NCBI GenBank assembly: GCA_937919685.1
Contig: CALFOM010000201.1
Location: 1 to 45,964, forward strand
Direction of reading: 5' to 3'
Source of the DNA: an uncultured Phycisphaera sp.
Lineage (GTDB): Bacteria > Planctomycetota > Phycisphaerae > Phycisphaerales > SM1A02
Length of the DNA stretch: 45,964 bases
In this document: positions 29,958 through 34,669 of the stretch, one piece after another
How the letters are laid out: each line of letters begins with the position of its first letter
How positions within the stretch are numbered: position 1 is the stretch's first letter
The notes under the pieces: generated by a model
The model's database searches: none
Told to the model about the DNA's origin: nothing
The model's input: the letters and a program-made list of their open reading frames with translations, nothing else
Translations under genes and position numbers: made by a program

Positions 29958-32165
29958 TCAATCATTGGCGATGAGGCGAATCGCTTCGTCGGAGGACAGG
30001 TCAAGGGACCCATAGAGGCGTCCTGCGGCATTCGCAGTCGAGCTGTTTCCTTCGCCCGTACTGGATGCGATGAGCCTGCGGAGTGCCTCGACCTGGCGAC
30101 CGGCCGCCTTATTCCCGAAGGAACGGGCGCTGGAGGCGGCGAGATCGAGCAGCGAGATCTGCTCGTTGCTGGAGGCCGCCAGAGCGGCGTCGATCAACGC
30201 CTGCTGGCTCGCATCAGTGGCGATCAGGGAGACCACTTCCGCGACGAGCAGACGCATGCCGCCGGAGATGCTCGTCATCGCCGCGAGCAGGGAAGGCTCG
30301 GCGGCGGTGATGTCGTAGGGCCCCTTGCCGTGACGCGCGATGTTCGCGAGCGTCTGAAGCGCGTTTCGCGTGTAGGCCATCGAATCGTTCGCGGTCAGAC
30401 GACCTCCCGAGGCGACCTCCATCAGCGAGTTGACCGCCGATTGGAATTGCGCTTCGGTCCCACCGCTGATAAACGCCCCGGTGGCACGATCGCTGGTGAA
30501 TTCCCGATCCATGGCAATCTTGTCGATTCCGCTGCACATCAGCATGACCGGCGTCGCGCCGGTTCCGGCGAAGTTACGGATCTGACCGACGGTGGTGACC
30601 GCATCGGCCTCACCGGCATGAACGACCACCAGGTCGATTCCATTGGATCGGTTGATCTCGGACTCGAGGTCATAGAAACCAGGGCCGCTCGCCACGACGG
30701 TGAATCCGGCGTTGCCGAGCATCGCGGAGAGACTGTTTCGATCTTCGTCGGTGGAGGCCACGACGACCGCAAAGCTATCGTTGTTCGATCGGATGGCGTT
30801 CGCCAGAAGTGGCACCACTTGGTTGTCGCCAGCGAAGGCCTTCTCGGGCATGGCGGCCCCGAGAACCAATGCAGCGTCGTACTGGACGCGACGGTCGGGG
30901 TAGCGAAGACATTCCAGCAGCGGCTGCCGGCCGCCCGCGCCGACCATCCGGCCGCGTTCGACGGTCATGCCTAGGGCGGAGATCGCATCGCGAACGAGCG
31001 CGGTGTCGCTTCCGTCAATCGCCATCGCGAGCACGTCACGTGCGATGGAACTTCCGGCCGCGGTCGCAAAGAACTGCGGCGTGTACTTGGCATCAGCGGC
31101 GAACGGGTCGGTCTCTCCGGCCCCGATCTGATTCTCCCGACGGAGATCCGCGGCGACGAAAACGGCGAGCGCCATTCGATTCGAGGGATCCGCGGCGAGC
31201 GCTGTCCGTGCGCTCCGCATCGCCATCACCTGACAGAAGATCGAGGTGGGAACGGGTGTCTGCACCAGACCGGAATGCGGCCCGTAGTTCCAGACCATGT
31301 TGACCGGGTCGGCGGGATAGGCGATCAGTGACTGTTCCTGGGCGAAGAACTTTCGCCCGAGCGCGGTGAATGCCGCCGAGACGTCAGTCGACGTTCCTCC
31401 GAGGCGACGGAACGCGGTCATCGCGGCGTCCTTGACTTCTGGCGTGCTCTGCCGGGAAGTCGCGACCTTGAGGAGGTACGGAATGGCAGTGGGCCAGCCG
31501 ATCTTGGAAAGCATGCGGCAGACTTTGGTCTGAACCGTCGCCGAGAGTTCGGGAAGGGCAGCACAGAGCGGAAGAACCGCCTGTCGCTTGATCTCCTCGA
31601 TCACCTCGATGACTCGAATCTCGACTTCAGGGTCCTTCGACGCGACCAGAACATCGAGCAACTGCGGCACGGCGTACTCGCCTGCTTCAATCAGACGACG
31701 CTTTCCCATCATCTGGGCTCGAAGCGAACCATTGAGCATTCCGATGGCTTCTTGGATCCGATCTTGATTCCGAGCGAGCTCGAGTCGGCCTTCCTCAAGC
31801 CGTTTCTCGAACTCCGTGACCATGGGACCAACTCCAGCCATGCCGCGGCCACGGCTCAACGAACGATCGACCTTGTCGCCGAGATCGTTCTCGGAGACCA
31901 GTTCGGCCAACTGGGCGTCGGTGATGCCGCTCTCGAAGAGTTGTCGGCCTGCCGCTTCGGCGAGGTCCGGCTTCGCGATGAGCACGTAGTGCAGAAAGTC
32001 GCCGACCAGACGCGTTTGATCCGCGTCGTTCCCATCCTGCAAGGCGGGGGATGAGGCGAACGCAGGTTCGACTCGGTTGGCGGCGTCGAGCCCGATGATC
32101 AACAAACTTCCAATCGCGACGGCGCGGATGAAGCTGGTGTTCGAAGTACGGAACGTGCGATCCAT
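29958..32165 (-). CDS. Exported HEAT-repeat protein with a degenerate receiver-like segment
   Basis: This 735-aa protein starts with a signal peptide or anchor (FIRAVAIGSLLIIGLDAANR, up to ASSPALQDG). Residues about 130-290 and 330-450 are helical repeats of HEAT/Armadillo type (LLDVLVASKDPEVEIRVIEV; LLECLRYPDRRVQYDAALVL). Residues about 458-590 read like a CheY-type alpha/beta fold (FAVVVASTDEDRNSLSAML, NGIDLVVVHAGEADAV, TPVMLMCSGID). In that fold the expected phospho-Asp position is His-Ala and no Lys is seen at strand 5. A further helical region follows. HEAT repeats usually bind proteins; a role as an extracytoplasmic scaffold is inference. GGAGG lies 9 bases before the ATG. The gene is monocistronic, followed by a hairpin and the tRNA-Thr. 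Confidence 0.75.
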   Translation of the reverse strand: MDRTFRTSNTSFIRAVAIGSLLIIGLDAANRVEPAFASSPALQDGNDADQTRLVGDFLHYVLIAKPDLAEAAGRQLFESGITDAQLAELVSENDLGDKVDRSLSRGRGMAGVGPMVTEFEKRLEEGRLELARNQDRIQEAIGMLNGSLRAQMMGKRRLIEAGEYAVPQLLDVLVASKDPEVEIRVIEVIEEIKRQAVLPLCAALPELSATVQTKVCRMLSKIGWPTAIPYLLKVATSRQSTPEVKDAAMTAFRRLGGTSTDVSAAFTALGRKFFAQEQSLIAYPADPVNMVWNYGPHSGLVQTPVPTSIFCQVMAMRSARTALAADPSNRMALAVFVAADLRRENQIGAGETDPFAADAKYTPQFFATAAGSSIARDVLAMAIDGSDTALVRDAISALGMTVERGRMVGAGGRQPLLECLRYPDRRVQYDAALVLGAAMPEKAFAGDNQVVPLLANAIRSNNDSFAVVVASTDEDRNSLSAMLGNAGFTVVASGPGFYDLESEINRSNGIDLVVVHAGEADAVTTVGQIRNFAGTGATPVMLMCSGIDKIAMDREFTSDRATGAFISGGTEAQFQSAVNSLMEVASGGRLTANDSMAYTRNALQTLANIARHGKGPYDITAAEPSLLAAMTSISGGMRLLVAEVVSLIATDASQQALIDAALAASSNEQISLLDLAASSARSFGNKAAGRQVEALRRLIASSTGEGNSSTANAAGRLYGSLDLSSDEAIRLIAND

Positions 32166-32633
32166 CGAATCGATCCTCCATCGACGGCCGAGATCGGCCG
32201 ACGGGGTCTGCCGTGTCGCGGATCAATCGATCCGTTCGCGGCGGCGTGTGGTCCACTGGGGACCGTGCATGAATACGGCCTTAAGGCAAAGACGGCCGAA
32301 GAACGGGGACGAGAGGCCTGACCGTTCTAGTGCAAGAACGGTCGAATCCTCGGGTCTGTCCCCATGTCAGGGACTGGGACTGCGGACGCCCATTCCGGAC
32401 GACCGATCTTGAGCCAATGCCGGAGCATCGGGTGGGGTTCTCGGCCGAGCCGGGAATAGTTCCGCCTCCGCCGGAGCGAACGCGGAACGAGAAGAGTACC
32501 GGGCCGCGGGAAAGGGTGTCAACGCCAGCCGCATTCCGAGTTCGAAGCCTATCCCGGAGGAGAATGCCCGATATACTCCACCCGCACTTCGGGCCCCGCG
32601 GCGTTCCGCGGGCGGGGAAGCTGGCCGAAATCC
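32166..32633. other. Divergent region upstream of riboswitch operon
   Basis: No gene is seen in about 470 bases between the HEAT-repeat gene and the riboswitch. A 9-bp inverted repeat (GACCGTTCT at 32320-32328, complement at 32335-32343, 6-base loop) could be an operator or a structured leader. A TATACT at 32572-32577 could be the -10 element for the riboswitch transcript, but no good -35 is visible. Confidence 0.4.
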
Positions 32634-32810
32634 ACGGTCTGGATGCTTCTTCGAAGGGAAGGCGGTTGAAAGCCGCCGCGGACGCGCCGCCGTAACGGGC
32701 TTGATTCGGTCAAGAAGCCGAATCTCGCGAGTCATGAGCCACTGCAGGACCCTCTCAGGGCGATGTGGGAAGGCAGACTCGGGAATCGCTCGGAGCCGGA
32801 AGACCTGCCC
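32634..32810 (+). promoter_or_regulatory. Cobalamin (adenosylcobalamin) riboswitch aptamer
   Basis: The conserved core elements of the cobalamin riboswitch occur in order. GGGAAGGCGG with the hairpin GGCGG-TTGAAAG-CCGCC is at 32656-32677. GCGGACGCGCCGCCGTAACGGG follows to 32699. GCCACTG is at 32738-32744, GTGGGAAGGC at 32765-32774, and the B12 box AGCCGGAAGACCTGCC at 32794-32809. The P1 stem can form between CGGTCT (about 32635) and AGACC (32801-32805). Such aptamers bind B12 coenzymes and repress downstream genes when B12 is plentiful. The regulated gene is the exported dockerin-type protein 76 bases downstream and probably the whole operon behind it. I recognised this by eye; a covariance-model search would settle its limits. 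Confidence 0.88.
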
Positions 32811-32877
32811 GATCGATCTGGTGCCCGACGCGATCGGGCGCTCTTCCGACTGGCCGGCGCGAATCCGGCCTCCGGAG
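32808..32877 (+). promoter_or_regulatory. Candidate riboswitch expression platform
   Basis: Between the aptamer and the start codon lie a stem CCCGATCG (32808-32815) with CGATCGGG (32831-32838) and a second hairpin GGCCGG (32852-32857) with CCGGCC (32865-32870). The second hairpin ends three bases before the ribosome-binding GGAG (32874-32877). CTTCCG (32843-32848) could also pair with CGGAAG inside the B12 box. No T-run follows, so control is more likely at translation start than by termination. This is inference from pairing only. Confidence 0.45.
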
Positions 32878-32885
32878 TTTCTGTG

Positions 32886-33839
32886 ATGTCATCACCAATA
32901 ATGTCATCCCGACCATCCAAGCCGTCAACCCAAGGCGGCCTGATCAAGGTCCTGATTCCAGCCCTCTTCCTGAATACTTTTCCGATCTTCGGAGATTCGC
33001 CTTTTGCGGTCGAGGTGATTCACTTCGACCCAGGCATCGGGGCCATCCCTGGCTACGACCATCCCGAATCCGCGTTGGGTGAGCCGACCCGAACCACTGG
33101 CGGCGTCCTCTTCCCCGCCGCCGTGACCCCATTCCAGCCCGCCTGGCTGGCTTCAGAAGTGGTCTCTTTGGGCATCGGCGGAACGATCGAACTGGCCTTC
33201 GATCACCTGGTGCTTGACGACCCGGAGAATCCCTTTGGAATCGACCTCATCATCTTCGGCAATGCCTTCTGTACCGATACGAACGCACCATGGGGCATCG
33301 TCGGCGGCATCTACGAAGAAGGTGGTCAGGTCGAGGTGAGTCTTGACGGCCGCGATTGGGTGCTGATCCCAAACGTCATGGCCGACGGTTCCTTCCCCAC
33401 GCTCGGATGGCAGGACGCCGGACCGTATGCGGAAACACCCGGTCGGATACCCGCCGACTTCACGAAGCCGGTGAATCCCGCCCGGTACCCCAACGGCCTG
33501 ATCGGACTCGACTTCGACTCTGTCCTGCAGACCTACGACGGCGCCGGCGGTGGCGTAGGCATCGATCTTTCGAGCGTCGGCCTCACCGCGATTCGCCACG
33601 TCCGAATCACCAACACCGGCGTCGATTCCACGCCCGAAATCGATGCGATCGCTGATGTCGCCCCGGGGGACGCCGCTCGATTGCCCGGCGATCTCAACGC
33701 CGATGGCCTGGTGAACGGCATCGATCTCGGACTCCTCCTCGCGGCGTGGGGTACCAACGACGCCACCGCGGATCTGGACGGCGATCTTGTCGTGAACGGT
33801 CCGGATCTCGGCCTGCTTCTGGCGGACTGGACCGGATGA
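32886..33839 (+). CDS. B12-riboswitch-controlled exported protein with dockerin-like end
   Basis: This 317-aa protein has a signal peptide (LIKVLIPALFLNTFPIFGDS). The mature domain of about 225 residues has WLASEVVSLGIGGTIELAFD and NPFGIDLIIFGNAFCTD, then EVSLDGRDWVLIPNV and IRHVRITNTG. This pattern recalls cell-surface proteins found near B12-transport genes in Bacteroidota and Verrucomicrobiota. It ends with paired Ca-binding dockerin-like repeats (DLNADGLVNGIDLGLLLAAW and DLDGDLVVNGPDLGLLLADW). Being first behind a cobalamin riboswitch suggests surface binding or capture of corrinoids; that function is inference. GGAG lies 8 bases before the ATG at 32886; GTG at 32883 is an alternative. 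The stop overlaps the pseudopilin ATG by 4 bases, so the two are coupled. Confidence 0.85.
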   Translation: MSSPIMSSRPSKPSTQGGLIKVLIPALFLNTFPIFGDSPFAVEVIHFDPGIGAIPGYDHPESALGEPTRTTGGVLFPAAVTPFQPAWLASEVVSLGIGGTIELAFDHLVLDDPENPFGIDLIIFGNAFCTDTNAPWGIVGGIYEEGGQVEVSLDGRDWVLIPNVMADGSFPTLGWQDAGPYAETPGRIPADFTKPVNPARYPNGLIGLDFDSVLQTYDGAGGGVGIDLSSVGLTAIRHVRITNTGVDSTPEIDAIADVAPGDAARLPGDLNADGLVNGIDLGLLLAAWGTNDATADLDGDLVVNGPDLGLLLADWTG

Positions 33840-34669
33840 CCCTCGAACCAGACCGAATCTCGGCCGAACCACGACGCGTGCCGCAATCTCGGATCCGTGG
33901 GTTCACCATGATCGAATTGATCGTGACGCTCGGTATCATGAGCGCCCTCGTTGCCCTCGTCTCGACCGGAATCGCCTCCGCATCGACGATGGCGAGGAGC
34001 ACGGCGTGCCGAGCCAACCTCCGCCAACTGCATCTGGCCGCGGAGGCGTATCTCACAACGCAAGGCGGCTATCCCGCCGCAGTGCTCTACCGGATGGAGG
34101 AAGGCGACGTTCGCACTACGTCCTGGGACTTTGATCACCGCGCCGATGGGACGATCGACAAAGGGCCGATCTGGAACTATCTCGACGATCAAGACCGGGT
34201 CTTCCAATGTCCCGACTTCCGAGGCGCCAGCAACTTCGGCGACGATCCTTCGACCGGCTACAACTACAACACGTCGTTCGTGGGCGCCGAAGGACGGTTC
34301 CCCACCCTTGATCCCGACGGACGCCTGCTGGAGGGATGGGACCACTGCCGGCGTGCCGTGCCTGCGGCGGCCCACCGAAGGCCATCGACCACCGCCTTGT
34401 TCGGCGACGGCGGTTGGATCGCTGGCGCGAATAAGTTCATGCGGGCGCCGTCAAACATCGTCGAAGTCGATCTTGGACTGGTGCATGGAGGCACTCAGGC
34501 GTTTCGGCACGCCTCCTGCTCCAACTTCGTCTGTCTGGACGGCCACATCGAATGCTGCGACATGCCCTGCGAAGGCGTGAATCAGCACGAGGGGTTCCTG
34601 CGGACGATCACCGACTTTCCGCGAAACGGTTTCCTGAGCAACGACGACTCGAACTACGACCCCCGTTGA
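33836..34669 (+). CDS. Prepilin-type secreted protein (H-x9-D-G class)
   Basis: This 277-aa protein has the prepilin signature RGFTMIELIVTLGIMSALVA near residue 22, with the canonical Gly-Phe cleavage site and Glu+5. Its C-terminal third carries the H-x9-D-G motif (HASCSNFVCLDG), which is typical of planctomycete and verrucomicrobial type II secretion-like proteins. Between them are TACRANLRQLHLAAEAYL and many Tyr, Asp and Cys residues. It should be inserted in the membrane and processed by prepilin peptidase. The ATGA overlap with the preceding gene means it is translationally coupled to the riboswitch-controlled exported protein, implying that the two act together at the cell surface. Confidence 0.87.
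   Translation: MTLEPDRISAEPRRVPQSRIRGFTMIELIVTLGIMSALVALVSTGIASASTMARSTACRANLRQLHLAAEAYLTTQGGYPAAVLYRMEEGDVRTTSWDFDHRADGTIDKGPIWNYLDDQDRVFQCPDFRGASNFGDDPSTGYNYNTSFVGAEGRFPTLDPDGRLLEGWDHCRRAVPAAAHRRPSTTALFGDGGWIAGANKFMRAPSNIVEVDLGLVHGGTQAFRHASCSNFVCLDGHIECCDMPCEGVNQHEGFLRTITDFPRNGFLSNDDSNYDPR

Follow-up and report, generated by a model that had tools for sequence, protein, structure and literature searches.

This locus raises the question of why a cobalamin riboswitch should stand in front of an exported protein and a pseudopilin. The window, meaning the whole stretch of 45,964 nucleotides analysed here, is one entire contig from a metagenome-assembled genome of 3.45 Mb, which is 97% complete and has its closest named relatives in the Phycisphaerales (Planctomycetota). 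A first-pass annotation had read a B12 aptamer on the plus strand from position 32634, an exported dockerin-type protein (P0001) and an H-x9-D-G pseudopilin (P0002) whose ATG overlaps the preceding stop codon. It had guessed at corrinoid capture and proposed checking whether homologues of P0001 recur behind B12 riboswitches, whether a pseudopilin neighbour recurs with them, and whether a model of the domain shows similarity to corrinoid-binding proteins. Our analysis indicates that the locus is probably a corrinoid-acquisition operon induced by B12 starvation, in which a surface capture protein is combined with a dedicated pilin in the place where BtuB usually stands. The features are collected in Table 1.

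Table 1 Features of the riboswitch, putative capture protein and pilin locus, in window coordinates
Feature	Position	Strand	Basis
Cobalamin riboswitch aptamer (RF00174)	32605..32826	+	cmscan; kept upstream of orthologues
Predicted expression platform, two hairpins	32820..32877	+	RNA fold and near-invariance in six congeneric loci
P0001, putative exported capture protein, 317 aa	32886..33839	+	Signal peptide, BtuH-type domain, dockerin-like C-terminus
BtuH-type H-domain of P0001, residues 37-260	32994..33665	+	AlphaFold2 model, structure matches, bridging profile
Dockerin-like C-terminal domain of P0001, residues 267-316	33684..33833	+	PF00404 and NF041540 below cut-off; 2Y3N structural match
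Pseudopilin P0002, 277 aa	33836..34669	+	N_methyl above cut-off; start overlaps P0001 stop
C-terminal signature of riboswitch-linked pilins, NGFLSNDDSNYDPR	34625..34666	+	Comparison of 12 linked with 18 other pilins

The aptamer was confirmed by a cmscan search, in which it scored 56.4 bits against the RF00174 gathering score of 31.5 (E 1.7e-11) and covered model positions 1-189, its full length; its start had to be corrected to about 32605. A chance match is ruled out by this score and by conservation upstream of homologues, and a whole-genome search found no other RF00174 match above cut-off. The predicted RNA fold that follows contains two hairpins (32820-32842 and 32844-32877), and the 3' arm of the second is predicted to pair the GGAG Shine-Dalgarno sequence at 32874-32877. 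This fold is weak taken alone (z -1.5), while the platform sequence is near-invariant across six congeneric loci, which also conserve the ATG at 32886 and, a few nucleotides 5' of it, the GGAG. No rho-independent terminator clearly exceeding chance was found after the aptamer. The pairing of the GGAG within the predicted hairpin suggests that the riboswitch acts on translation by sequestering the ribosome-binding site.

No Pfam family covers the core of P0001, and an assignment to DUF4465 (PF14717) was rejected after no match was obtained at E up to 1. An AlphaFold2 model generated with 61 homologues had a mean pLDDT of 91, with a core of about 98. A Foldseek search of the PDB returned BtuG1 from Bacteroides thetaiotaomicron as the sole match below E 0.001 (E 2.3e-6). 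Upon re-alignment BtuH2 (7BIZ) came out on top (Z 11.8, rmsd 2.4, 138 residues, 27% identity) and BtuG1 (8BLW) second (Z 11.0), with an identity to the two proteins of 26-27% over 138-148 residues. Unrelated jelly-rolls reached Z 9.9 and below, and CBM32-type sugar-binding modules about 8.6. The part of BtuH2 and BtuG1 that aligns to P0001 is the BtuH-type domain, which binds B12 in both proteins (PMC8941943, PMC10404256). Sequence comparison led to the same domain: a profile including order-level homologues from other families found BtuG1 8BLW at E 4.9e-12 (hmmsearch), and P0001 itself matched these bridging homologues with E-values from 2e-10 to 2e-8. Against our reading, own-family profiles alone did not find BtuH or BtuG1 in the PDB, and hhalign of the family-level alignment gave weak probabilities of 33% for BtuH2 and 14% for BtuG1. 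The homology to BtuH rests on the bridge and the fold because the own-family profile is weak against both proteins.

The GNAF motif of P0001 contains an invariant Asn126 and a common Phe128, which align with BtuH2 Asn399 and Phe401 (by alignment, with no superposed ligand); Asn399 contacts the B12 phosphate in BtuH2 (PMC8941943). The corrin-ring and ribose contacts of BtuH2 are Gln333, His476, Tyr510, Trp511 and Trp577. Gln333 aligns with Ala53 of P0001, and the other four belong to loops that in P0001 are short or gapped, so that alignment does not place equivalents for them. Because the corrin-ring contact loops are short or missing, the P0001 pocket appears remodelled relative to that of BtuH2, which counts against our reading. 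The earlier guess is nevertheless strongly supported by the sequences and models: the BtuH2 match, the bridging profile to BtuG1 and the riboswitch association described below all point to P0001 carrying a candidate corrinoid-capture domain, and from this we infer that P0001 binds B12.

The description of P0001 as an exported dockerin-type protein held in part. Its N-terminus is signal-like and its C-terminus is dockerin-like, as judged by a match of type II dockerin 2Y3N to the model (Z 9.6), but the dockerin scores fall just under the curated cut-offs, both for PF00404 (22.5 bits against 22.9) and for the GC-type dockerin NF041540 (22.1 bits against 29). Allowing E up to 0.1, PF00404 was found in 45 of 61 P0001 orthologues. 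Similar C-terminal domains occur in dozens of proteins of the same genome (37 scored matches, most of them to residues 232-317), and relatives carry PEP-CTERM-like ends in their place (L024, L098/L119). Because the domain is lineage-wide in dozens of proteins and is swapped for PEP-CTERM, it is uninformative about a cellulosome, and a cellulosome-type dockerin was ruled out on the same grounds.

The reported gene overlap was borne out, the stop of P0001 sharing an ATGA at 33836 with the start of the pilin gene. P0002 has the H-x9-DG motif and matched N_methyl (PF07963) at 24.0 bits against a cut-off of 21.2, and it stayed under the cut-off for DUF1559/SBP_bac_10 (PF07596; 15.8 bits against 23.3). 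Its model (pLDDT 90.5) matched the pilin PilA4 best (Z 5.8), and the fold search returned weak pilin matches only, with no corrinoid-binding domain. Variants of a C-terminal signature (NGFLSxDDxxYDPR or GWFGxDxNxLFD) were present in all 12 riboswitch-linked pilins compared, 11 fitting the pattern and the twelfth having a small insertion, and in none of the 18 other pilins compared. In a pilin tree the riboswitch-linked proteins grouped together, with 2 label changes against 9.7 when shuffled (0 of 500), a grouping that does not imply a single origin. Pilin-like genes are numerous, with 18 in the window's genome and a highest count of 134 in G056, which weighs against our reading. G056 also has two B12-riboswitch operons (L162, L163) with different exported proteins and with pilins from two different riboswitch-linked clades.

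Both proposed recurrences were found. Within an order sample of 61 genomes, 32 of 36 strong P0001 orthologues had RF00174 above cut-off within 1.5 kb upstream. From a phylum-wide search of 244 genomes with a protein profile, in which the RNA played no part in the choice, we took 20 loci that lie beyond the closest relatives; each of the 20 had a gathering-level RF00174 match upstream of the gene and on its strand. In 74 of the 80 named loci the capture gene was overlapped or directly followed by a prepilin-type gene. When the riboswitches were counted instead, 43 of 55 in 52 order-level genomes were followed by a related pilin no more than 4 kb away, against a chance of about 1-5% per locus for a right-strand pilin (an estimate from pilin counts); the loci in these pairing counts share ancestry and are not independent. 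A strict pilin pattern matched in 73 of 80 loci and found no pilin ORF in 827 kb of control DNA taken from the flanks. The pilin is kept while the preceding exported genes vary among BtuH-type, propeller-like, ~190-230-aa and DUF4465-fusion proteins, and in other orders of the class it was present in 8 of 8 loci with different exported genes in between.

The clearest operon tying the pilin to B12 import is that of G109 (L231, G109:C60:59000-70000, minus strand), where a riboswitch, a DUF4465 gene (E 2e-56), an H-domain/dockerin gene, a pilin gene, BtuF, BtuD and BtuC follow consecutively. DUF4465 shares operons with these systems in G109, G167, G200 and G049. Outside the class Phycisphaerae the H-domain was found behind a riboswitch with no pilin seen, which counts against our reading in that the pilin is not required for capture everywhere. 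In family f45 of another class (L230, L232, L234, L235, L236), the riboswitch is followed by a 450-620-aa propeller-like protein and then an H-domain protein, with no pilin. One propeller-like protein was tested and had no Pfam match; the two are possibly a BtuG-like pair.

At about 1,355 Da, B12 exceeds the size that ordinary porins let through, and well-studied Gram-negative bacteria import it through a TonB receptor. The genomes under study appear from their gene content to depend on B12 without making the corrin ring: the corrin-synthesis marker CbiC was found in 0 of 61 order genomes and the B12-dependent methionine synthase (MetH) domain in 56 of 61. The window's genome holds a BtuFCD-like cassette elsewhere, without a riboswitch above cut-off, and no TonB plug domain was found in this 97% complete assembly. 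Secretins are present in all 61 order genomes. In G048 (G048:C22; L154 2454-4773) the riboswitch is immediately followed by a gene for a BtuB-like TonB receptor (TIGR01779, E 2.7e-80) in place of a capture-pilin operon. This BtuB was matched in only 3 of the 37 genomes that belong to the family of the window's genome (G016, G028, G031), and no relative of it was found in the window's genome. Against our reading, some relatives hold TonB receptors and the pilin operon together.

The acquisition operon that we propose would work as follows. At low B12 the unliganded riboswitch would leave the ribosome-binding site free and the two overlapping genes would be translated, the direction of the switch being the one we infer. 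P0001 would be exported, and its lineage-specific C-terminal domain would keep it beyond the inner membrane, probably on the cell surface; its BtuH-type domain would bind corrinoids. The dedicated pilin would enter a type IV-pilus-like or type II-like filament, which would pass the loaded protein or the corrinoid through the outer-membrane secretin or present it there, and BtuFCD in the inner membrane would finish uptake. The pilin may serve in retrieval or, as the first-pass annotation had suggested, in secretion or display. A bolder version, in which B12 uptake in Phycisphaerae is TonB-independent and pilus-powered, the loaded BtuH-type protein being retrieved through the secretin by a riboswitch-induced filament of the dedicated pilin, is offered tentatively and is rather less than probable. 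This gene set recurs in many planctomycetes that seem unable to make B12 and for the most part lack the usual importer of the vitamin in the outer membrane; they may therefore fetch it by an undescribed route linked to pili.

The strongest rival accepts the capture protein as proposed and makes the pilin only a secretion or assembly partner, a pseudopilin in a type II-like piston by which P0001 is exported or anchored; the corrinoid would then pass the outer membrane through a porin unrelated to the operon or through a receptor that escaped detection. This is a serious possibility, although it falls short of being probable. Type II secretion pseudopilins push folded exoproteins through a secretin, and every genome of the order has secretins. 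The translational overlap of the two genes suggests a fixed stoichiometry, and the pilin is kept where the exported partner appears to be of an unrelated family (a 190-230-aa type in G056a, to which a PQQ propeller is added in f2). Against a role in secretion only, exported dockerin-type proteins number in the dozens in these genomes, the signature pilins stand only beside the riboswitch among the pilins compared, and the G109 pilin lies between the capture genes and BtuFDC.

A B12-controlled adhesion system, in which the protein and the pilin would tether the cell to algae or bacteria that produce B12, with no corrinoid bound, is improbable. Adherence is common among pili and the jelly-roll also resembles CBM32-type modules, but BtuH2 and BtuG1 outrank every CBM32 match at the identities given above, and in relatives the operon is shared with DUF4465 and with BtuF, BtuC and BtuD. 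An accidental pairing, in which abundant pilin-like genes and vertical inheritance of a neighbourhood that is conserved within the family have placed a pilin of no B12 role beside the capture gene, is most improbable given the excess of pairings over the estimated chance, their persistence across families and other orders with different exported genes between, and the empty control DNA.

Comparison of the proposed acquisition operon with known systems places its novelty in the operon design, a BtuH-type capture protein with a dedicated pilin in a genome without a TonB plug. P0001 shares with BtuH2 and BtuG1 a homologous B12-binding domain, export, an operon under a B12 riboswitch (PMC8941943, PMC10404256) and the aligned Asn/Phe contacts on the phosphate side. 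It differs in not being a lipoprotein by sequence, having instead a signal peptide and a dockerin-like (in relatives, PEP-CTERM) C-terminus, in its shortened corrin-ring loops, and in its partner, which is a pilin and not BtuB. The DUF4465 and BtuJ jelly-rolls bind B12, do the same kind of job and occur in the same operons in relatives (PMC13398666, PMC12751083), one DUF4465 protein that binds B12 coming from the Phycisphaerae member Mucisphaera (PMC13398666), whereas P0001 has no DUF4465 match. BtuBG import is alike in its riboswitch-controlled surface capture feeding BtuFCD and unlike in its TonB dependence, the window's genome lacking both the TonB plug and a relative of the G048 BtuB. P0002 has the N-terminal methylation motif, long helix and pilin-like model of type II pseudopilins and type IV pilins, and is set apart from them as a distinct subfamily by its link to B12 riboswitches and by a C-terminal signature of its own.

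In planctomycetes of other genera, dextran has been shown to attach to pili-like fibres, with its passage across the outer membrane left unexplained (PMC5394234). These fibres resemble our proposal in the filament-linked capture of a large nutrient and differ in genus, in the polysaccharide substrate, in having no gene identified and in having no connection to B12; they make a filament route plausible and are not evidence for the riboswitch-pilin operon. The operon serves as a specific, testable candidate for B12 acquisition in planctomycetes without corrin synthesis and offers a gene set for unexplained filament-linked uptake in this group. It would also give members of a pilin group whose purpose is unknown a likely role, and it would widen the range of the BtuH and DUF4465 capture proteins from the gut Bacteroides in which they are best known to planctomycetes of aquatic habitats. 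We found no report of planctomycete cobalamin riboswitches, or of a pilin in B12 uptake, in the open-licence literature.

Two further observations concern the surroundings of the riboswitch and its relatives. A riboswitch-like match elsewhere in the window's genome (C97:31305-31431; L179 5306-5432) scored 23.9 bits, below threshold, and was hence not counted as a riboswitch; it precedes a 189-aa PEP-CTERM-like exported protein (L179 5572-6141). The ~190-230-aa exported family to which this protein belongs (WxGxGxNxAxVxxDF) has relatives behind full riboswitches in G193, G260, G233, G040, G056 and G044 and, for this reason, may be another corrinoid-handling family; no PDB sequence match was found for the ~190-aa proteins. 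Within the window, the divergent neighbour of the operon (29958-32165, minus strand) encodes an exported HEAT-repeat protein of 735 aa that shows no evident link to B12; synteny in relatives takes in this gene together with the downstream MoeA and MutL genes.
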